Positions 11,449-36,107 of a DNA stretch of 46,996 nucleotides are shown here, one piece after another. The notes under the pieces are model-generated. The model was not told the origin of the DNA. It saw only the letters and a list, made by a program, of their open reading frames with translations, and searched no databases. The stretch covers positions 1 through 46,996 of the IMG/VR virus record IMGVR_UViG_3300035145_002621, one strand, 5' to 3'. This DNA is from a virus. How positions within the stretch are numbered: position 1 is the stretch's first letter; every line of letters starts with the position of its first letter. The position numbers and the translations under genes are program-made.

Positions 11449-11479
11449 TTTGATTACTACACAGTTTTTGTTATATTTG
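11449..11479 (+). promoter_or_regulatory. host-type promoter of the Clp gene
   Basis: TTTG (11449-11452), 19 bp, then TATATTTG (11472-11479). This matches the Bacteroidota housekeeping promoter pattern TTTG-N19-21-TAnnTTTG and lies 23 bp before the ATG. Confidence 0.75.
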
Positions 11480-11502: not shown

Positions 11503-13521
11503 ATGATTGAATCAGTAGACCCTAATGAAAAAGGTGGACGTAAGTCCAAAGGAATGACCGACTCTAAAACACCTGTTTTGGATAACTTTGCACGTGACTT
11601 AATTAAACATGCTGAGGAAGGTAAATTAGACCCTGTGGTAGGTCGTGAGCGTGAGATTAATCGTATCGCACAAATTCTTTCACGTAGAAAGAAAAATAAC
11701 CCCATTATTATCGGTGAACCAGGTGCGGGTAAAACAGCTATCGTTGAAGGTTTGGCCATGAAGATTTTTGAAGGTGATTGTCCTCAAAACCTATGTGATA
11801 AAAGAATCGTATCTTTAGATATGACCTCTATTGTTGCTGGTACCAAATATCGTGGTCAATTTGAGGAACGTTTAAAGGTTATCTTGGATGAATTGTATGA
11901 AAACCCTGATATCATCGTGTTTATCGATGAAATTCATACCATCATCGGAGCTGGTAATTCATCGGGTTCATTAGATGCATCCAACATCTTTAAACCAGCA
12001 CTTGCTCGTGGTGAACTACAATGTATTGGAGCAACAACTCTTGATGAATACCGTGAGAACATCGAAAAAGACGGTGCACTTGAACGTAGGTTCCAAAAGG
12101 TTGTGGTTGATGGTGCAACTCCCGATGAAACGATGGAGATATTACAAAACTTAAAATCACGTTATGAGTCTCACCACAAAGTTTCGTATTCAGAAGAATC
12201 GTTAAAAGCTTGTGTAGCACTTGCTGACCGTTACATCACGGACCGTGAGTTCCCTGATAAAGCGATTGACATTTTGGACGAAGTGGGTGCACGTGCACAA
12301 ATTAATGTCAAACTTCCTGAAGTTATTGAAAAACTAAAAGAAGAGGCAAATCTCATCAAAGAGGAAAAACTTAAAGTTGTAAAGTCTCAACAGTATGAAA
12401 AAGCTGCAGAACTTCGTGATAAAGAAAAGAAGATTCTTAAAAAACTTGAAGACGAAAAGATTAGGTTTGAAGAGGAAAAAGATTCCGTTCGCAAACCTAT
12501 CACTGAAGATATGGTCTATGAAGTTGTGGCAACAATGACTAAGATTCCTGTAAACAAATTAAACACAGACGATAAAGAATCTTTGTTGAGTTTGGAGGAA
12601 AACTTAAATAAATCAGTTATTGGTCAAGAACCTGCAGTTCAAGTCATCTCAAAAGCAATCCGTAGAAACCGTGTGGGTATTAAAGACCCTAACAGACCTA
12701 TCGGTTCTTTTATCTTCTTAGGTTCAACGGGTATCGGTAAAACTCACTTGGCAAAACAACTGGCAAAAGAAATCTTCGGAGATGAAGACGCGTTAATCAG
12801 AATGGATATGAGTGAATACCAAGAGAAATACACCATGTCTCGTTTGATTGGTTCTCCTCCAGGGTATGTAGGTCACGACCAAGGGGGTCAACTTACCGAG
12901 GCGGTAAAGAACAAACCTTACTCAGTAGTATTGTTTGACGAAATTGAAAAGGCCAATAAAGACATCTTTTCACTTCTCCTTCAAATGATGGATGATGGTC
13001 ACCTAACGGACAGTTTTGGTAGAAAGATTAACTTTAGAAACTGTTTGATTATTATGACATCAAACTTAGGTGTTAAGAAACTTCAAGATTTTGGTACAGG
13101 TGTTGGTTTTGAAACCACAAACCGTATGTCAAACAATGAAGACATGAAAAAAGCACTTCTACAAAAAGAGTTAAAGAATCACTTCACGCCTGAGTTCCTT
13201 AACCGTGTCGATGAGGTTGTAGTCTTTAATCCACTTAAAGAAAATGAAGTATCACAAATTGTTGATATTGAATTGTTAAAGTTGACATCTCGTTTAGAGA
13301 AGTTGAAATACAACATCACAATTTCAGATAAGGTTAAAGAGTTTATCTCAAAGGTTGGTTTTGATGAGAAGTATGGTGCACGTCCTATTAAACGAGCTAT
13401 TCAAGAAAAGATTGAAGACCTTATCTCTGAAGAAGTTTTACGAGGAACCATTACTGAAAATAAGTCTTTCGTTGTAGAGATGAAAGATGAAGAAGAATTA
13501 GAAATAAAAGAGGGGAAATAA
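11503..13521 (+). CDS. ClpC/ClpA-type AAA+ unfoldase lacking N-domain
   Basis: A 672-residue double-ring AAA+ unfoldase. D1 has Walker A GEPGAGKT (71-78) and Walker B IVFIDE (138-143). The short middle domain carries a UVR motif ([15 protein letters not shown], 296-310), as in ClpC. D2 has Walker A GSTGIGKT (407-414), Walker B VLFDE (476-480) and the pore loop GYVG (454-457). VGF (534-536), in the position of the ClpC ClpP-docking loop, suggests it can feed substrates to a ClpP, presumably the host's since none is in the window. The usual N-terminal Clp_N repeat domain (about 150 residues) is absent: the protein begins some 25 residues before D1. Own promoter upstream. Confidence 0.95.
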
Positions 13522-13533
13522 TTTTACCTTCTT

Positions 13534-13564
13534 TTTGGAAATCAAAAATTAATTCTTATATTTG
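13534..13564 (+). promoter_or_regulatory. host-type promoter of the M20 peptidase gene
   Basis: TTTG (13534-13537), 19 bp, TATATTTG (13557-13564), 18 bp before the ATG; the intergenic gap after the Clp gene holds nothing else. Confidence 0.75.
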
Positions 13565-13582
13565 TAGACTAATATATAAACA

Positions 13583-14635
13583 ATGGATAACAATCAACTC
13601 ACCCGACTTAAGGAAGTCCTTTCGGTACCAACAAAAACTTACCAAGAGGATAATATGGTACAGTACTTACGCGACGTATTGGATGCAATGCCCGATGTAG
13701 AACACTATACCGATGATATGGGTAACGTATACGCCACGAAAGGTGTTCTTAATGAAGGTGAGTGTTATCCTATGTTTATAGCTCACACCGACACTGTTCA
13801 CGCACTTGTCGATGAAATCGTTGTTCGAGAAGAAACACTTGTTAAACCCAATACCTTTGGTCTAAAATTTGACGACCAAACATTCCTTTCTTTAAAAGGT
13901 TACACCCCTGATGGTGAACCTACAGGTATCGGTGGTGATGACAAGTGTGGGGTCTTCATAGCATTGGAACTTCTACGTACACTATCCAAAGTAAAAGTAG
14001 GGTTATTTGTATCTGAGGAAACAGGGTGTCACGGCTCCAGTAAATGTGACCCCAACTTCTTGAACGATGTGGGCTATGCTATACAATTTGATGCACCTGG
14101 CAATGCTTTAATTACCGAGCTTTGTTCGGGAGTTCGATTGTACGAAAAAGATGGTGAGTTTATCAATAAACTTAAACCTATCTTTGAGCAGTCTATGGGT
14201 ACTGTTTCTGATGAACAATCACACCCATATACTGATGTATCACAAATTAAAAGGAAGGGGGATTTTAGTTGTATTAATTTCTCATGTGGGTATTACAACA
14301 TGCACACAGTACAAGAATTCGTTGTTATTGATGATGTTAAGCGGGCTCTTGAATTTGCTGAAAATGCCGTATCGTCTTTGGGTTACGTAAAATACCCTTA
14401 CGAATACCAACAACCTACATGGAAGTCGTATGGAGATTTGTTTGATATTGATGATTTTGATGATGACTTTTCAGAAGACAAAATCGACATGGAACGACTA
14501 ATCGTTACCACCTCAGATGAAGGTATGACCATCGAATCAAAATTTAGTGGAGATTTGATTGAGTTGGATGATGAAGAAATGTTGGACATCTATGAGGCGA
14601 TTAAAAGCCACCTAATGTCAAAATACACACACTAA
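13583..14635 (+). CDS. M20-family peptidase (tripeptidase-like)
   Basis: A 350-residue co-catalytic zinc peptidase resembling peptidase T and other M20 enzymes that remove residues from short peptides. Predicted metal ligands and catalytic residues are visible: HTDTV (H68, D70), GIGGDDKCG (D119), VSEETG (E145 base, E146), QFDAPG (D170) and MHTVQE (H241). The dimerisation domain typical of M20 seems reduced; the insert after residue 180 is only about 50 residues. The C-terminal 70 residues are acidic and extra. It follows the Clp unfoldase gene by 61 bp with its own promoter; degrading peptides released by Clp-type proteolysis is a reasonable guess. The stop overlaps the convergent gene by 4 bp. 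Confidence 0.87.
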   Translation: MDNNQLTRLKEVLSVPTKTYQEDNMVQYLRDVLDAMPDVEHYTDDMGNVYATKGVLNEGECYPMFIAHTDTVHALVDEIVVREETLVKPNTFGLKFDDQTFLSLKGYTPDGEPTGIGGDDKCGVFIALELLRTLSKVKVGLFVSEETGCHGSSKCDPNFLNDVGYAIQFDAPGNALITELCSGVRLYEKDGEFINKLKPIFEQSMGTVSDEQSHPYTDVSQIKRKGDFSCINFSCGYYNMHTVQEFVVIDDVKRALEFAENAVSSLGYVKYPYEYQQPTWKSYGDLFDIDDFDDDFSEDKIDMERLIVTTSDEGMTIESKFSGDLIELDDEEMLDIYEAIKSHLMSKYTH

Positions 14636-16536
14636 TCCTCAAAAGGGTCAAACAATTGATAGTTCGACATTAACTGTTGGATTGTCGATAGTTTGGCCTT
14701 TCCTTTTTTAAATCCGTAGTTGTCACCTCTTCGGGTAAGTTCAAAAACTATTTTATTATCGGTAGGGTCTACACTCTTAAACCTTATTTCCACATTACCG
14801 CCAGCAGTTTCAACAGGTATCCTTTCGTCAAATTCATATTTGTTGCTTATGAACGTATAAATTCTTTTATATTCTTCCAAGTCTGAGTATTCATCAGAAT
14901 CTTCAAGTTTCTCTAATAAAGTATCTAATGCAGAATCCATATCTGAATTAAAGTGGTATTCAAATGTTTTATCATCTCTAACCTCATACGCCATTTCACG
15001 AGGTTCACGAATATCAAATGAAACTCTACCAGGTATTACAACGGTTTTTAATAATTGGTCTAAAGTTAAACCTGAAAACGATTCTAAATCGTCCTCATAA
15101 AATTCTATTAGGTTATCTATTGGAATCATATACGATGAGAAACAATCACCATTTTTTTCCATACCTATGGGTGAATACACTTCACAGGCTTCTTCACTTA
15201 TTGCGTTTTTAACACCAACTTTCATAGATTCATCTTCAGCTGTGGAATATGCGTATGAAAAATCATCAATAAATCTACTATCAAAATTTAATAAGTACTT
15301 ACCTATTTTAGACTCACAACCATCACTAATTCTTAAATTGTATAGGTCATAAAAATCTTTTTCATCATTACCTTTTTGTATGAATTTTTGTAAATTGTCT
15401 TTATTCATTTTAGGTATTGTGGCCTTAAAACAATTGATTAATTCACTTCCTGACAGTTTTATAATTTCTCGTAACTTTTTTAAATGGTCTTGAGTTAATA
15501 CATTTAATGGATACCCTTCACGCATATCATCATCGAAGTTATAAGCATCATAATACATACTATCATAACCATATGGTGTATCGATGGCATATTCAACATC
15601 TTTTAATTCGTATTCGTCAACCTCTTCAACAAATAAGCTTAAATAATCCGCAACGTCATCAAATTCAAAATAAACGTAATCTTGGTCCATTTTATAAAAA
15701 TAATCCGCAGATAAAACTTGGTTCAAATCTTTACGGTTACCTGATTTGGCATTTTTTAGTTTTTCGTAATCATCGTCACCTTTAACTAATTTTCTGATGA
15801 TGTCAGTCAACGGTTCAAAACGTTGTATTAAGGTATCTAAAGACCTGAGAGAATCTTTTTGGTCGTAGACTTCAGTGTTTCCATTATGTCTAACAAACAA
15901 CGCCATTTTCCCCCATATGTTATCACTACTCTTCTTATCTATGATATAAAATAAAGAGCCTTCTTCACTGTACTTGTCAAAGTATCGGGTATCGTCTTTT
16001 GTGGTGGTACACCATTTGGTATTTGCTCCATAATAACAAGATGCATTGTGACTGAAAGGACGCAATATTAAAAATCTTTCGTCTTCATAAATTTTTTCAA
16101 CGTCTTTTTTGGCTTCGGTTTCTTTTTCTACCTCAATCTTTCTTTTACGAACACCGTTTAATACCGCCTGTAGTGCCCAAATTGTATCGTATTTGTAAAT
16201 GTCTTTTGGTCCTGACTTAATTCTATCAGGTTTAACTAAACTTGATAACGTGGCAGCATAATCAATATCTTCAGGTGTTATTGATGAAGATGTTTTATGA
16301 AAATTTTCAATAATCTCAATAAACAGATTTACATTGTCGGCGATAGAATGAGTTAATCGGTCACCCAATCCAATCATTTGTTTAATCATCCACTCAGAAT
16401 ACTTTTTTGTTGATGAAGGGTCACCGTCAATAAGTTTTTCCAATAAATGAGTCGCATCTTCAAAGGTATCTTCATCTTTATATTTATCGATAAGATTTTC
16501 CTTTTTACCCTCAAGTAGTAAGTTGATGAATTTCAT
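14632..16536 (-). CDS. large hypothetical with TKWCTT motif and N-terminal tag
   Basis: A 634-residue protein. The N-terminus MKFINLLLEG is tag-like and contains LLE|G, a possible prohead protease site. Residues about 150-235 hold a recognisable phage module: ILRPFSHNASCYYGANTKWC followed by TT, then a strand YIIDKKSSDNIWGKMALFV; related GxxTKWCT segments occur in many phage proteins of unknown function. The remainder is acidic, Tyr/Asp-rich and probably helical, with a small C-terminal beta domain. No catalytic residues can be assigned. TATAAATA is 12 bp upstream. Confidence 0.75.
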   Translation of the reverse strand: MKFINLLLEGKKENLIDKYKDEDTFEDATHLLEKLIDGDPSSTKKYSEWMIKQMIGLGDRLTHSIADNVNLFIEIIENFHKTSSSITPEDIDYAATLSSLVKPDRIKSGPKDIYKYDTIWALQAVLNGVRKRKIEVEKETEAKKDVEKIYEDERFLILRPFSHNASCYYGANTKWCTTTKDDTRYFDKYSEEGSLFYIIDKKSSDNIWGKMALFVRHNGNTEVYDQKDSLRSLDTLIQRFEPLTDIIRKLVKGDDDYEKLKNAKSGNRKDLNQVLSADYFYKMDQDYVYFEFDDVADYLSLFVEEVDEYELKDVEYAIDTPYGYDSMYYDAYNFDDDMREGYPLNVLTQDHLKKLREIIKLSGSELINCFKATIPKMNKDNLQKFIQKGNDEKDFYDLYNLRISDGCESKIGKYLLNFDSRFIDDFSYAYSTAEDESMKVGVKNAISEEACEVYSPIGMEKNGDCFSSYMIPIDNLIEFYEDDLESFSGLTLDQLLKTVVIPGRVSFDIREPREMAYEVRDDKTFEYHFNSDMDSALDTLLEKLEDSDEYSDLEEYKRIYTFISNKYEFDERIPVETAGGNVEIRFKSVDPTDNKIVFELTRRGDNYGFKKGKAKLSTIQQLMSNYQLFDPFED

Positions 16537-18358: not shown

Positions 18359-18389
18359 TTTGACAGAGAAAAAAAACTATTTATATTTG
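18359..18389 (+). promoter_or_regulatory. host-type promoter of the tmRNA
   Basis: TTTG (18359-18362), 19 bp, TATATTTG (18382-18389), 27 bp before the mature 5' end. Confidence 0.75.
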
Positions 18390-18416: not shown

Positions 18417-18803
18417 GGGGGTGAATGGAATCGATTGGCGTAGATAGTCATCGAGGGCACGCAGTGAGACGTTACCTATCACTTTAATCTATGGTTGCAA
18501 ATTTTAGCTGGCGAAACTATCGCAAAACTTCAGGCTGTGGGTCTTATCCGCACTGAAGAAGTAACTGTAGCGTAAGACGTTAACAGTGAAGCGGGTCGGG
18601 GGACATACAACCTATGAACAGAAGTCTTTACAAAGGTGGAGAAACGACTGAACCCGAAATCGAGTCGTACATCTATTGGTGATGGAGGATGTAAAAATTC
18701 AATCACATATTTCGGAATGTTGAGAACCAATATTGACCTAAGCGTGTAGTCCTTTATGGGTAATGCGAGCAAGACGCGGGTTCGAATCCCGCCACCTCCA
18801 CCA
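18417..18803 (+). ncRNA. ssrA: tmRNA (complete)
   Basis: A 387-nt transfer-messenger RNA, which frees stalled ribosomes and adds a degradation tag. The 5' end GGGGGTGAATGGAATCGAT and the 3' end with T-arm GCGGG-TTCGAAT-CCCGC and acceptor CACCTCC-A-CCA form the tRNA-like domain: the 7-bp acceptor stem has one G-U pair and CCA is encoded. The alanine tmRNA hallmark G-U in this stem is at the third pair. The gene is full length with its own promoter and terminator, unlike the 3' fragments left at prophage attachment sites. The tag frame is given separately. Confidence 0.95.
18510..18575 (+). other. tmRNA tag reading frame, 21 codons
   Basis: The resume codon is taken as GGC at 18510 because TAG-CT precedes it, as TAG-TC precedes the E. 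coli resume codon GCA. The frame then reads GETIAKLQ... to ...EEVTVA and stops at TAA (18573-18575), giving 21 residues. The GET start matches Bacteroidota tags (GE-T/N-NYALAA type, from memory), but the rest is longer and ends in VTVA rather than LAA. No other frame gives an ALAA ending. Confidence 0.65.
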
Positions 18804-18805
18804 TT

Positions 18806-18845
18806 AATGCCGATTAGAATTGATTTTTAATCGGCATTTATTTTG
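18806..18845 (+). terminator. tmRNA terminator
   Basis: An 11-bp stem, AATGCCGATTA paired with TAATCGGCATT, then TATTTTG, starting three bases after the encoded CCA. Confidence 0.85.
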
Positions 18846-20513: not shown

Positions 20514-21005
20514 ATGAGCGTAGTATTGGTGTTAAACTCTGATTACTCACCTTTAAATGTGACAAGCCTACAAAGAGGGTTTGTATTGGTCGATAAAGGA
20601 AAAGCAGAAGTGATAAAAAAAGGGGAGAATGATATCGTAACCAGTGTGGGTAATTTTGTTAGACCGTTGGTTATTAGATTGTTAAATTACATTCGATTCA
20701 GACCTAAAACCATTAAGGTTAATAGAAAACGTATATTCAAAAGAGACGGTTACAGTTGTCAATATTGTGGGTCAAAAAGAAACTTAACTATTGACCACGT
20801 CATTCCTCGTTCTCGTGGAGGTACCAATACGTGGAAAAATATGGTAACCTGTTGTTTTAGGTGCAACTCAACAAAGGGGGATAAAACACCATCAGAAGCT
20901 AACATGAAACTATTGACTCAACCTTATGAGCCGAGTATATTTACACATATCATTCACGATGATATTGAAACAATTTGGAGTAATTTCAAAAAATCATTTG
21001 TTTAA
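20514..21005 (+). CDS. HNH endonuclease
   Basis: A 163-residue protein with a C-terminal HNH domain: IFKRDGYSCQYCG (C82, C85), LTIDHVIPRSRGG (D94-H95), WKNMVTCCFRCNSTKGD (N109, zinc Cys C114 and C117). The N-terminal 60 residues (VLVLNSDYSPLNVTSLQRGF) match the domain commonly fused to bacterial HNH proteins of this kind, so it is probably a free-standing cellular-type HNH protein rather than an intron homing enzyme. It could nick host DNA or act in packaging; the target is unknown. Confidence 0.9.
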   Translation: MSVVLVLNSDYSPLNVTSLQRGFVLVDKGKAEVIKKGENDIVTSVGNFVRPLVIRLLNYIRFRPKTIKVNRKRIFKRDGYSCQYCGSKRNLTIDHVIPRSRGGTNTWKNMVTCCFRCNSTKGDKTPSEANMKLLTQPYEPSIFTHIIHDDIETIWSNFKKSFV

Positions 21006-21028
21006 CAATTTTTTATGTTCTATCTTTG
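20997..21028 (+). promoter_or_regulatory. host-type promoter of tRNA-Leu
   Basis: TTTG (20997-21000), 20 bp, TATCTTTG (21021-21028), 13 bp before the tRNA. Confidence 0.65.
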
Positions 21029-21041
21029 AACTATAAGAAAT

Positions 21042-21127
21042 GCCATAGTGGTGGAATTGGTAGACACGAGGGACTTAAAATCCCTTGAACAGTAATGTTC
21101 GTGACGGTTCGAGTCCGTCCTGTGGTA
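21042..21127 (+). tRNA. tRNA-Leu (UAA)
   Basis: An 86-nt class II tRNA. The acceptor stem pairs GCCATAG with CTGTGGT, the anticodon loop is CTTAAAA (anticodon TAA, read UAA), a long variable arm GAACAGTAATGTTC follows, and the T arm is GACGG-TTCGAGT-CCGTC. CCA is not encoded, unlike in the tmRNA, so host CCA addition is needed. It reads UUA, a frequent codon in this AT-rich genome. Confidence 0.95.
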
Positions 21128-21135
21128 CAAAAATA

Positions 21136-28407: not shown

Positions 28408-28737
28408 ATGATGAAAAACACATTTGAAATACTCAACTATGATTTCTGTGACGAAGAACTTACTATAGATTTTGCAATCAATAATGAGGAAGGATACAGA
28501 ACTTTTAAGATAAGTGAATATGATTTTTACGATTTTTTATCTGACAACGAATACTTAGAAATGTTTAGTGACCAATGGAACTATACATATGAGTCACATT
28601 ATACTGAACACTGGGTGGTTAGTGTTGATGAGTATATGAGTCACTACTTTTCAAGTGACGATTTGATAGACTTTATTATTTACTATTTTAAGAATGAAGA
28701 CTATCCTGAATTACAAACAGAAACTTATGAGAGTTAA
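28408..28737 (+). CDS. small acidic hypothetical protein
   Basis: A 109-residue protein rich in Asp, Glu, Tyr and Phe, not recognised. The start is set at MMKNTFEILNYDFCDEEL; an ATG at 28378 would add ten residues. It reads like a small alpha/beta protein (ELTIDFAINNEEGYRTFKIS). Its end overlaps the next gene by 11 bp, suggesting co-expression with the oxygenase-like genes. Confidence 0.7.
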   Translation: MMKNTFEILNYDFCDEELTIDFAINNEEGYRTFKISEYDFYDFLSDNEYLEMFSDQWNYTYESHYTEHWVVSVDEYMSHYFSSDDLIDFIIYYFKNEDYPELQTETYES

Positions 28738-29305
28738 TACTTTAATTGTTGACGATTTTTACGATAACCCTGAAGAGGTTAGGGAGTTCGCACTACAACA
28801 AGACTTCGGTGTGGATGGAAATTACCCTGGTCATAGGACAGTATCATTCTTAAATGATGGTATCAAAGAAACCTTAGGAAACCTAATTAGACCTTTTGCA
28901 GGTGAAGTAACTTACTGGGGTGGCGAATACTCAGGAGCCTTTCAATATACAACTGCCGAGGACCGTTCGTGGATACACTCAGACAGTACAACAGGGTGGG
29001 CTGCGGTATTATTCTTAACACCAAATGCACCAGTAACTGCAGGAACAGGATTGTTTAGACATAAAGAAACGGGTTTATCTTCGTGGGATGGTAGTCAACA
29101 TACCGATGAAGAAACTGCAAATGCCCCACATATGATTGAACCTCGTGATTATACCAAATGGGACTTAGTAGACCAGTTAGGTAATAAATTTAATAGATTG
29201 GTCATGTACCGTTCAGACAACTACCACGTTTCATTAGATTATTTTGGTAAAGATTTAGAAACAGGTAGACTATTTCAAGTATTCTTTTTTACTTCAGAAT
29301 ATTAA
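28727..29305 (+). CDS. DUF6445-like 2OG-Fe(II) oxygenase-fold protein
   Basis: A 192-residue protein from the ATG at 28727. Iron-binding and 2-oxoglutarate residues of the double-stranded beta-helix fold are visible: WIHSDSTTGW (H84, D86), DNYHVSLDYFG (H167) and TGRLFQV (R181). The overall pattern (DDFYDNPEEVREFAL at the N-terminus, then WAAVLFLTPNAP) fits DUF6445-type proteins. It is the first of three oxygenase-like genes within 2.3 kb. Substrate unknown. Confidence 0.75.
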   Translation: MRVNTLIVDDFYDNPEEVREFALQQDFGVDGNYPGHRTVSFLNDGIKETLGNLIRPFAGEVTYWGGEYSGAFQYTTAEDRSWIHSDSTTGWAAVLFLTPNAPVTAGTGLFRHKETGLSSWDGSQHTDEETANAPHMIEPRDYTKWDLVDQLGNKFNRLVMYRSDNYHVSLDYFGKDLETGRLFQVFFFTSEY

Positions 29306-29326
29306 TATTTTAATTATCATTTTATT

Positions 29327-30043
29327 ATGAAAGATATTGTAAACCCAGACTTAAACATAGAAGAACTACAAAAGACCTTTAAGGAAAAAGGTTATGTGGT
29401 TATCGATAACTACCTTAAGGAAGATATTGCAGAGGAACTGTATCAATTTTTCGCTTATGACATGCCACCTGAGTGGTGGTCAGTAGCAACGTTTCCTGCT
29501 GAGGGTCAAGAGGGTGTAGAATATAACAGAAATATTGCGGAAAATGAAGAGAGTATTAGAGATGCTAGACTTTATGCTGAAAAGGCTTTTGGTGAAAACT
29601 TATTCTCATACGCATTTCATAGAACATTAGACGACCACTTCGAAGACTGTACTTGTCAAGAATGTGAACTACGTAAAGTAATGGATAGTAAACCTACTCA
29701 CGATTTAATTTCAAAGATTACCGATTTAAAAATTGTAAGTGCCAATGAACTATTCGCGGCTTGTTATGTTAACGGAGATTTCTTATCACCACATCAAGAC
29801 AGTCCAAACGGTATTATTGGTTTTGTACTACAATTAAGTAAAGATTGGTTACCTCATTACGGTGGGTTATTACACTTTTTAAACGATGAGGGTACTATCA
29901 TTGAAAATGTTGAGGTTCCTAAGTTTAATAGTTTGACAATGTTCTTACTACCTAAAGACAAAGGTAAACTACATTACGTATCACATGTGAATCCAGGGGT
30001 GAATGAGATTAGATTATCCTTCACTGGGTGGTTCAGGAACTAA
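29327..30043 (+). CDS. 2OG-Fe(II) oxygenase (prolyl-hydroxylase-like)
   Basis: A 238-residue protein with the full facial triad: SPHQDSPN (H156, D158), YVSHVNPG (H220) and the 2-oxoglutarate anchor EIRLSF (R229). A Cys cluster (CTCQEC, about 108-113) in the middle is unusual and may hold a metal. Family members hydroxylate proline, lysine, nucleobases or small molecules. It follows the DUF6445-like gene by 21 bp in the same direction, and its last 30 bp overlap the convergent gene at 30014. Confidence 0.87.
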   Translation: MKDIVNPDLNIEELQKTFKEKGYVVIDNYLKEDIAEELYQFFAYDMPPEWWSVATFPAEGQEGVEYNRNIAENEESIRDARLYAEKAFGENLFSYAFHRTLDDHFEDCTCQECELRKVMDSKPTHDLISKITDLKIVSANELFAACYVNGDFLSPHQDSPNGIIGFVLQLSKDWLPHYGGLLHFLNDEGTIIENVEVPKFNSLTMFLLPKDKGKLHYVSHVNPGVNEIRLSFTGWFRN

Positions 30044-30421
30044 TTCAGGGTACAATTCAAAAATCATCTCAACTAAGGTATCGAGACAATAACACTTGTC
30101 TCCTGATTGGTCATAATACTTATAACCATCTTTAATACTAATCATTCTAGGATTAAAAAATTTGTTTGAATAACTCCAAACATGCTCATCCATAAGATTA
30201 AAGTATTCCATAATCTTAGGATTGTCCTCAATGTATGTCTGAAAGTAATTAACCTGAGGGAACTCAATAGCCACTTGCATGTTAACCGAAGGTATTTCCT
30301 CAATAAAAGGTTTTATTGATAATGAACTTTCTTCTTGACGTTTTCTAAAGAAGAACCAAATCGCTCTATCATACTTTGTTATAAAGTCAAAGAAATTACT
30401 GTCGTCTACGTGATGTACCAT
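30014..30421 (-). CDS. hypothetical protein coupled to an oxygenase
   Basis: A 135-residue protein, not recognised. The sequence FFDFITKYDRAIWFFFRKR, with beta/alpha alternation after it, is faintly thioredoxin-like, but there is no CxxC at the expected place. It starts at the last base of the upstream oxygenase stop (1-bp overlap), so the two are translationally coupled. The 30-bp 3' overlap with the opposite gene is in-frame coding on both strands. Confidence 0.65.
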   Translation of the reverse strand: MVHHVDDSNFFDFITKYDRAIWFFFRKRQEESSLSIKPFIEEIPSVNMQVAIEFPQVNYFQTYIEDNPKIMEYFNLMDEHVWSYSNKFFNPRMISIKDGYKYYDQSGDKCYCLDTLVEMIFELYPELVPEPPSEG

Positions 30422-31011
30422 TATTTAAAAGGTTTTCCTGATACCCACAACACCAATGACCTTCTAACACCAGATGTTACAGGTGTCACCCTATGTAAAA
30501 GATATGAGGGGAATAATGTTAATGAACCAATTTCATTATTGGCTTCTGAAACGTATGAACCTAAATTAAATTCTAACTTACCACCTTTGTATTCTTCAGG
30601 TGTTGATAGTTGTAGTGATAATGATATTTTTCTATGGGGTGTTTGTTGACCAATATCAGAATGCCAGTTGTAGTGACCACCGTTATCATAATAAATTGAA
30701 TACTGTATGTCTTCGTACATTCCGTTAAGGTCAAAGTTCCAACCCATTTCAACATTCGCATCATTAACATACTCACCTAATCTTTCATAAATCCAATTAG
30801 TATCATCATTATTTCCTAACCACGCAATTTCACTTCTCCTAATGTTATCCGTGGTTTCATTGTAATCAACAGTAGCAACCTCTTTAGGGAGTTCCTCACA
30901 TATATTAATAATAGTTTTTATCTCCTCAGGACTAAAAACCTCATTAAAGTAGTAAAAATTATATAAGTCTGTTTGGTGACTCTCTTGGGTTATAAAATCA
31001 AAGTAAGGCAT
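30421..31011 (-). CDS. 2OG-Fe(II) oxygenase (PKHD-type hydroxylase)
   Basis: A 196-residue protein with a clear P4H-like fold: YNWHSDIG (H117, D119), YKGGKLEF, LFPSYLLHRVTPV (H173) and GVRRSLVLWV (R183). It resembles PKHD-type hydroxylases that are common in T4-like cyanophages. No signal peptide, so it acts in the cytoplasm. It is divergent from the small gene at 31062 and the tandem GT17 gene. It may modify a phage virion protein; the substrate cannot be read. Confidence 0.9.
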   Translation of the reverse strand: MPYFDFITQESHQTDLYNFYYFNEVFSPEEIKTIINICEELPKEVATVDYNETTDNIRRSEIAWLGNNDDTNWIYERLGEYVNDANVEMGWNFDLNGMYEDIQYSIYYDNGGHYNWHSDIGQQTPHRKISLSLQLSTPEEYKGGKLEFNLGSYVSEANNEIGSLTLFPSYLLHRVTPVTSGVRRSLVLWVSGKPFK

Positions 31012-34460: not shown

Positions 34461-36107
34461 TTACCTACCATACATCATAAGATAATATCTAAGGGCCATA
34501 CTTGTTAGGGTCCTTAGTTTTCTATTAATATTATTTGTAGAATAATCATCTTTACCCTCATCTTCTATTAAACTAAAGGCCGCCATTACAAGTTCTGATT
34601 TAGTTTGTTCAGCCAAGTCTAATAACTCTTCAACCGTGTCCTCGTCAAATTCACGTCCTTTAAGTTCCTCCATCTCGATAAACTTTTTAAGGTATTCGGC
34701 ACCTGATGCTAAAAATTGCATGGAGTCAAACATATTCACCAGTCCTGTATCTCTTATCTTAGTTAGGAAATCAAAGAATATCCTTTCGTTTGTTGATTTA
34801 AAAATGTCTTTTAGTTTTACTAACTCATCTAAAGTTGGGTTTTTAGATTCATTTACTGTGGTTACCACTTCAGGGAATTTCACACCAAAGTTATTTTCGT
34901 CTTTATCTTTATAATCTACATTTTGTAAAATGTGTCTAAGTAAGTTTAATGTTCCTGCTCTCTTATCGTTGGTGTCCACTACAGTCCACGGCTGAGCCTC
35001 TTTCGTCTGTTTTAAGACCTTTTCTTTATACTTGGTATAGTCATCCCACTTATCGATTGATTTCTCGTCATTAGGGGAGAATTTCCAATACTTCAATGGT
35101 GAGTTCTTTCTAAGTTCAAACCTCCTCTGTTGTGTTTGAGGTGTAATAGATAACCAAAACTTAAACAGTTCAACTCCCTTATCTTTTAACGATTGTTCAA
35201 AACCATTTACGTTCTCCATAAAATCAAAGTATTCTTCTTCAGTCCCATAACCCATTACTGGTTCAACAATACCTCTATTATACCAACTACGGTCAAAGAA
35301 TGTGATTTTACCTGGCTCTATGTGTTTTTCATAACGACCGAACCAGTCTTTTCTCTCCTCAGGTGTTGCAATACCTAATGCCACCACATTATAGTATTTA
35401 GGGTCCAAATACTCAGTCATCTTACGAATTGTAGAACCTTTACCTGCTGAATCTCTACCCTCCATTACAACCACCACAGGTTTACCTGTTTCTTTAACGT
35501 GTTCTTGTAATTTTAATAATTCAACCTGAAGGGGTATTAATTCTTTTTTGAATTGTTTTCTTCCGATTTTTGATTTTTCTGGCTCAACTCCTCCATATAA
35601 AAATTCATCTTCAACATCGAAATCATCTGATGGGTCCGATTCAACATCTCCTCTTGTTTCGATTGAGTCCAAGTATTTTGATATGTATTTCCTGACATTT
35701 TCATTTTTGTCTCCTGACTTTAATAATTTTCGGTCTAAATTTCTTAAGAATAAATCTGTAACATCATCATCATTTAATTGTGACATCAAGTCTTCAAATT
35801 CTTCAGGGTTTAACTCATTACTAATTAACTTATCGGTTAACTCTTGAACGCTTTCACTTAAATTTGAATTATCCTCTTTTTTTAAATCTTCTTCTTTCAT
35901 CCATATATCCTCTGCAGATACTAATGATAAGGTTCTTCCGTTATCCCACTTTACTGAAATTATTTTTTCATCATCACTATATGGGTCTCTACCTACACTA
36001 ACAACAGTTCCTGCAACACCACCAGTAATTGGGGAATACTCATCCGACATATGGATACAAACGATTCTATCACCTTCTTTTACCTTAGGATTTATTTCTT
36101 TACTCAT
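34461..36107 (-). CDS. polyphosphate kinase 2 (PPK2) with extra domains
   Basis: A 548-residue protein. Residues about 180-400 form a PPK2 kinase: VVVVMEGRDSAGKGS (Walker A GRDSAGKG, 217-224), TPEERKDWFGRYEKH, FFDRSWYNRG (270-279) and LFKFWLSITPQTQQRRFELR. PPK2 enzymes use polyphosphate to phosphorylate nucleoside mono- or diphosphates, or the reverse. The N-terminal 75 residues look like an SH3-like beta barrel (GDRIVCIHM, GGVAGTVVSVG, SVKWDNGR), and an acidic linker follows. The C-terminal 140 residues are helical and not recognised. Full-length core, no missing key residue seen. Confidence 0.93.
   Translation of the reverse strand: MSKEINPKVKEGDRIVCIHMSDEYSPITGGVAGTVVSVGRDPYSDDEKIISVKWDNGRTLSLVSAEDIWMKEEDLKKEDNSNLSESVQELTDKLISNELNPEEFEDLMSQLNDDDVTDLFLRNLDRKLLKSGDKNENVRKYISKYLDSIETRGDVESDPSDDFDVEDEFLYGGVEPEKSKIGRKQFKKELIPLQVELLKLQEHVKETGKPVVVVMEGRDSAGKGSTIRKMTEYLDPKYYNVVALGIATPEERKDWFGRYEKHIEPGKITFFDRSWYNRGIVEPVMGYGTEEEYFDFMENVNGFEQSLKDKGVELFKFWLSITPQTQQRRFELRKNSPLKYWKFSPNDEKSIDKWDDYTKYKEKVLKQTKEAQPWTVVDTNDKRAGTLNLLRHILQNVDYKDKDENNFGVKFPEVVTTVNESKNPTLDELVKLKDIFKSTNERIFFDFLTKIRDTGLVNMFDSMQFLASGAEYLKKFIEMEELKGREFDEDTVEELLDLAEQTKSELVMAAFSLIEDEGKDDYSTNNINRKLRTLTSMALRYYLMMYGR

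Follow-up and report, generated by a model that had tools for sequence, protein, structure and literature searches.

A conserved tmRNA with a long, clade-specific tag accompanies a ClpC-type unfoldase in uncultured phages

We analyzed a 47 kb virus fragment from IMG/VR (the window, taken at its full length) and found that it encodes a tmRNA with a 21-residue tag. The tag belongs to a family of fixed length that is under selection as a peptide, and its gene co-occurs across a phage clade with a ClpP-docking unfoldase and a peptidase (Table 1). In bacteria, ssrA tags are short and it is their C-terminus that is conserved, whereas this uncultured clade keeps a fixed-length tag that is conserved in mid-peptide. 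The data suggests that a large group of uncultured Bacteroidota viruses marks failed proteins in its own way. With moderate confidence, we propose that the phage tmRNA is functional, that it works with the host's SmpB, and that it appends a clade-specific degradation tag whose likeliest reader is a phage ClpC without the N-domain, acting with ClpP.

Table 1. The tmRNA gene, its flanking signals and associated genes in the window
Feature	Position	Strand	Basis or remark
ClpC-type double-AAA+ unfoldase without the ClpC N-domain	11503..13521	+	own promoter at 11449-11479
M20/M42-type (PepT-like) metallo-aminopeptidase	13583..14635	+	own promoter at 13534-13564
ORF of unassigned function between peptidase and tmRNA	14632..16536	-	kept in 53/55 loci
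Bacteroidota-type promoter TTTG-N19-TATATTTG	18359..18389	+	motif scan; scores 11/12 as a sigma-70 promoter
tmRNA gene, one-piece, intron-less, encoded CCA	18417..18803	+	ARAGORN; Rfam RF00023, 92.1 bits
Tag reading frame, GETIAKLQAVGLIRTEEVTVA and stop	18510..18575	+	ARAGORN, sequence, comparison of 86 distinct tag sequences
Intrinsic terminator hairpin with T-rich tail	18806..18838	+	3′ of the tmRNA
tRNA-Leu(UAA)	21042..21128	+	Bacteroidota-type promoter at 20997-21028

ARAGORN and the Rfam model RF00023 assign identical ends to the tmRNA gene, the latter at E = 1.2e-34 and well above its cut-off of 47 bits. The alignment covers the model end to end (positions 1–374), with an accuracy that is low mid-model and 0.61 overall, and the four-pseudoknot core is therefore putative. 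Reading the sequence, the acceptor stem is GGGGGTG/CACCTCC with a G3-U70 wobble, the alanine identity pair, at 18419/18797, and the CCA end is encoded at 18800-18803. The coding part identified by ARAGORN (gene positions 94-159) begins at the resume codon GGC, directly preceded by T-A-G-C-T, which places an A at position −4 (18506). In Escherichia coli, the A at −4 sets the tag frame (PMC2481249). This base is invariant in all 47 distinct tag sequences found by pattern and in every tag of the ATPase-selected loci described below; on cross-phage comparison, the reading frame is settled. The resulting 21-residue peptide ends in TVA and departs from the canonical ssrA degron form (about 8-15 residues with a C-terminal LAA).

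These results bear out the first-pass annotation, which had proposed a full tmRNA with an encoded CCA, its own host-type promoter and terminator, and a 21-residue non-LAA tag positioned by TAG-CT-GGC. The ordinary ...ALAA tag in a covariance-model alignment that would have spoken against it was not found, given the constant A(−4) of this frame and the fixed length of 21-22 residues. Its description of the phage as T4-like is fair, as the portal is T4-type (phrog_213, E = 3.9e-65) and the terminase matches phrog_2, with the nearest catalogued terminases being only 27-30% identical to the window's.

The window contains 13 promoter sites of the type TTTG...TAnnTTTG, which is characteristic of Bacteroidota, compared to 4.2 expected; none of 100 shuffles reached 13. 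These promoters precede the Clp ATPase, peptidase, tmRNA and tRNA-Leu genes, and their enrichment together with this placement points to a Bacteroidota host. Most of the 13 sites lie just 5′ of genes, including those at 11449, 13534, 16565, 18359, 18842, 20997 and 27008. The window also encodes an HNH endonuclease directly 5′ of the tRNA-Leu (20514-21005, +), a polyphosphate kinase 2 domain joined to an N-terminal DUF4314 domain (34461-36107, −), and a cluster of two 2OG-Fe(II) oxygenase genes and one DUF6445 gene (28694-31011).

We determined the distribution of the tag in several samples. Relatives were collected via the terminase, and an Rfam search of 40 larger records yielded over-threshold tmRNAs in 12, all of which encode 21-residue tags. 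A degenerate DNA motif for GLxRTE[EQ]V...xA and a stop, the strict motif referred to below, matched 108 IMG/VR contigs; the exact pattern of the window's own tag ending matched none there. Because the motif search fixes residues, we assembled a tag-blind sample of 80 viral loci by using the Clp ATPase homologue of the 484-kb huge phage LR756508 as query. An Rfam run on 74 records of these loci yielded 46 tmRNAs over the cut-off, each of them with a tag of 21-22 residues, and all of these tags belong to one family. The tags themselves were gathered with a loose regular expression that conditions on a few residue classes and lost none of the over-threshold tmRNAs. A tag is present in 58 of the 80 loci, and 14 of the other 22 end less than 4 kb from the ATPase. 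Eight loci have the ATPase and no tmRNA in at least 6 kb downstream (L265, L267, L272, L275, L277, L298, L311 and L341), possibly reflecting loss of the tmRNA or its later gain.

Beyond this clade, tblastn with the tag found no match in catalogued phages, which also contain no tmRNA similar at the DNA level. Across 84,980 prokaryotic genomes, the strict motif matched once, in a Lachnospiraceae contig (L219) that has no tmRNA; the match is out of context and we judged it to be due to chance. Canonical Bacteroidota tmRNAs occur on 12 other IMG/VR viral contigs, where G[EN]xNYALAA is read from the equivalent Gly codon. These contigs, rather than a host genome, supplied our Bacteroidota-type comparison tags; a thirteenth (L414) was a protein match and was left out.

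The tag family follows the consensus G[NE]x[LIF]xK[LM]xx[LIV]GLx...VxxA. In 86 distinct 21-codon sequences, the most conserved part is an internal block (G11 in 86/86, K6 in 84/86, G1 in 82/86 and L12 in 81/86), which surpasses the ending and had gone unremarked in the first-pass annotation. The C-terminal alanine, A21, is kept in 83 of them. For the tag-blind sample, the tag frame has a pN/pS of 0.60, compared to 0.86 and 0.95 in the other two frames, and therefore the peptide itself is selected. Tag diversity by codon position is 0.36, 0.28 and 0.51.

Alternatively, the conserved peptide could be a by-product, with selection acting on an RNA helix in the tag frame or on an overlapping feature. 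A hairpin inside the frame (CTTCAG...CTGAAG) is stable in the window's subclade, and synonymous recodings of the tag RNA are somewhat less stable than the RNA itself (mean MFE z of −1.05). However, the full six-pair stem is present in only 25 of the 86 sequences, two pairs form in 36 and 45 of them, and the tag frame is the only one in which synonymous changes prevail. We consider this explanation very improbable and, with the stem so seldom intact, reject a tag-specific hairpin as the main selected feature; RNA structure may nevertheless add to the constraint on the region.

None of 37 tag-bearing clade records searched contains an SmpB gene, and for this reason we propose that the phage tmRNA uses the host's SmpB. 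The same result would fit a phage tmRNA that mainly sequesters SmpB or takes the place of the host tmRNA, a mode of action suggested for the tag-less RNA of phage DS6A, a tRNA-like RNA that inhibits the endogenous tmRNA (PMC4131195, PMC11915505). Such a decoy needs no conserved reading frame, A(−4) or stop codon, and we regard this role as extremely improbable.

The tag's endings bear on its fate. Most are VxVA or VVxA; VxA and YAA also occur, and some tags end in VTI, TVS, VEA or VKA. The endings LVA, AAV and SVA are standard variants of the E. coli ClpXP degron (PMC9382460), and thus VTVA is compatible with degradation and the VA ending is no evidence against ClpXP. Consequently, the tag might be an ordinary degron for host ClpXP, ClpCP or Lon that has drifted within the tolerance of host ClpX, while the phage tmRNA merely adds rescue capacity when phage nucleases generate many broken messages. 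The retained C-terminal alanine fits such a host-read degron, as does the occurrence of tmRNAs in phages without this ATPase, one of which (LR756511, where no ATPase match was found) has the standard tag ANPEFAMAA. Drift, however, leaves the invariant length of 21-22 residues and the conserved G11, K6 and L12 unexplained, and it fits poorly with the 9-residue, ALAA-ending tags of host type in Bacteroidota or with the VTI, TVS, VEA and VKA endings. We judge this account to be unlikely.

Conservation of the internal block above the ending, together with endings that look poor for ClpX (VTI, TVS, VKA and VEA), would also be expected if the tag were not a degron at all, and instead stabilized rescued proteins or used the block to target them to some structure or partner of the phage. 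We find this improbable, as the C-terminal alanine is retained and a ClpP-docking unfoldase and an aminopeptidase are constantly in company. Moreover, the block occurs in no protein of at least 90 residues from the examined loci, apart from one unrelated match, which offers no candidate for a related native signal. Degradation of tagged proteins is the likely outcome.

The phage unfoldase is ClpC-type, with two AAA+ rings, D1 and D2 pore loops (KYRG and GYVG in the window) and an [IVL]GF ClpP loop (VGF in the window). As in the ClpC proteins of Staphylococcus aureus (6em8) and Bacillus subtilis (3j3t), it has D1, the M/UVR region, D2, the pore loops and the ClpP-docking loop; unlike them, it lacks the N-terminal adaptor-binding domain, and the alignment starts at ClpC residue 146. 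The [IV]GF docking loop is intact in 56 of 56 ATPases. ClpP itself is encoded in 8 of 37 tag-bearing records, with the expected Ser and His motifs in 7 of these 8, and no ClpP match was found in several large clade members of up to 294 kb. A homologue of the aminopeptidase lies between the ATPase and the tmRNA in all 55 loci, with its HTD, GDD, EE, DAP and H motifs conserved and its metal ligands kept across loci.

The first-pass annotation had linked the tmRNA to the phage Clp unfoldase, which is indeed present, and this link is upheld in part. The ATPase is encoded in all 37 tag-bearing records tested, and in the 55 loci compared for gene order the tmRNA lies 2.1-6.4 kb downstream on the same strand. 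Gene order is conserved across the whole upstream block, however, and the proximity is therefore not independent evidence of a functional unit. In a mirror-tree comparison, the distances of tag and ATPase correlated with a Spearman coefficient of 0.33, no better than for the neighboring structural genes (0.19-0.35), and we dismissed ATPase-specific co-evolution with the tag. A requirement of the long tag for the phage ATPase is likewise weakened by a Bxz1-type phage with a long tag and no such ATPase. As for the annotation's wider suggestion of reprogrammed ribosome rescue, a long non-LAA tag selected as a peptide and accompanied by a Clp unfoldase stands; rerouting to a different protease, or protection, is speculative given that the VA ending is compatible with ClpXP.

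Comparison with known systems delimits what is new here, namely a deeply conserved phage tmRNA with a clade-specific tag. Canonical Bacteroidota tmRNAs (GENNYALAA, GETNYALAA) are likewise one-piece, resume at a Gly codon after A(−4), begin with G[EN] and share the phylum's promoter type, but their tags are 9 residues long and end in ALAA, in contrast to 21-22 residues with an internal block and mostly VxVA or VVxA endings. Long phage tags have a precedent in the Bxz1-type mycobacteriophage ET08 (GQ303260), whose 25-residue non-LAA tag (ATDTDATVTDAEIEAFFAEEAAALV) is unrelated in sequence and starts at an Ala resume codon; a search for a ClpC-type ATPase found none there. Phage G carries a 13-residue non-LAA tag ending in QVA, also without the ATPase. 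A precedent for tag-protease co-adaptation is Mesoplasma florum, whose long, divergent ssrA tag is read by a lineage-specific Lon (PMC9382460); that tag is bacterial, with no phage involved, and differs from the phage tag in ending in NYAFA and being Lon-read.

Huge phages, in which tmRNAs have been noted (PMC7162821), combine long tags with a ClpC-type ATPase in LR756508, LR756504 and LR756501 (36, 24 and probably 33 residues). These lengths result when the resume codon is taken as a Gly or Asp codon preceded by A(−4), and the tag sequences are unrelated to the window's tag family. The 33-residue tag is based on a weak model match (21 bits), and the ATPase frame that goes with it is longer, apparently with an N-domain. 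ARAGORN misses or mis-frames the long tags of these three phages (L245, L422 and L426 for LR756508, LR756504 and LR756501). Two other huge phages, LR756502 and LR745206, have a ClpC-type ATPase and no recognized tmRNA.

Our preferred reading, a functional phage tmRNA carrying a clade-specific degradation tag, would proceed as follows. Judging from its promoter, the tmRNA would be transcribed by the host RNA polymerase early in infection. It would then be charged with alanine, bind host SmpB and enter ribosomes that had stalled on broken messages. Translation would switch to the GGC at 18510, adding the alanine and the 21-residue tag before terminating at a normal stop codon. The tag would present an internal recognition block, G[NE]xhxK[LM]xxhGL, followed by a C-terminal -xA that could be gripped by a Clp-family unfoldase, probably the phage's N-domain-less ClpC together with ClpP, which is phage-encoded in some genomes and would otherwise be the host's. 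The adjacent aminopeptidase may finish the peptides.

A stronger version, possible if on the doubtful side, is a private tag-and-destroy code, in which no unfoldase other than the phage ClpC that lacks the N-domain, paired with a ClpP of either phage or host, would recognize the internal block. Under such a code, polypeptides made from broken messages of host and phage would be recycled by a phage-controlled protease, beyond the control of host ClpXP. The purpose of phage tmRNAs thereby becomes directly testable, by asking which protease reads the tag and whether the phage benefits. The tag might also serve as an orthogonal degradation tag, for which the phage supplies a candidate unfoldase.

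The window's tmRNA contains no group I intron, unlike the phage copies in several relatives, where group I introns (Rfam RF00028) split the 3′ (T-arm) part of the gene. Introns in the T-loop are known from bacterial tmRNAs (PMC11915505). The phage introns lie at L113:12856-13082, L214:431-657, L111:8399-8629, L202:10061-10291 and L209:1957-2187.
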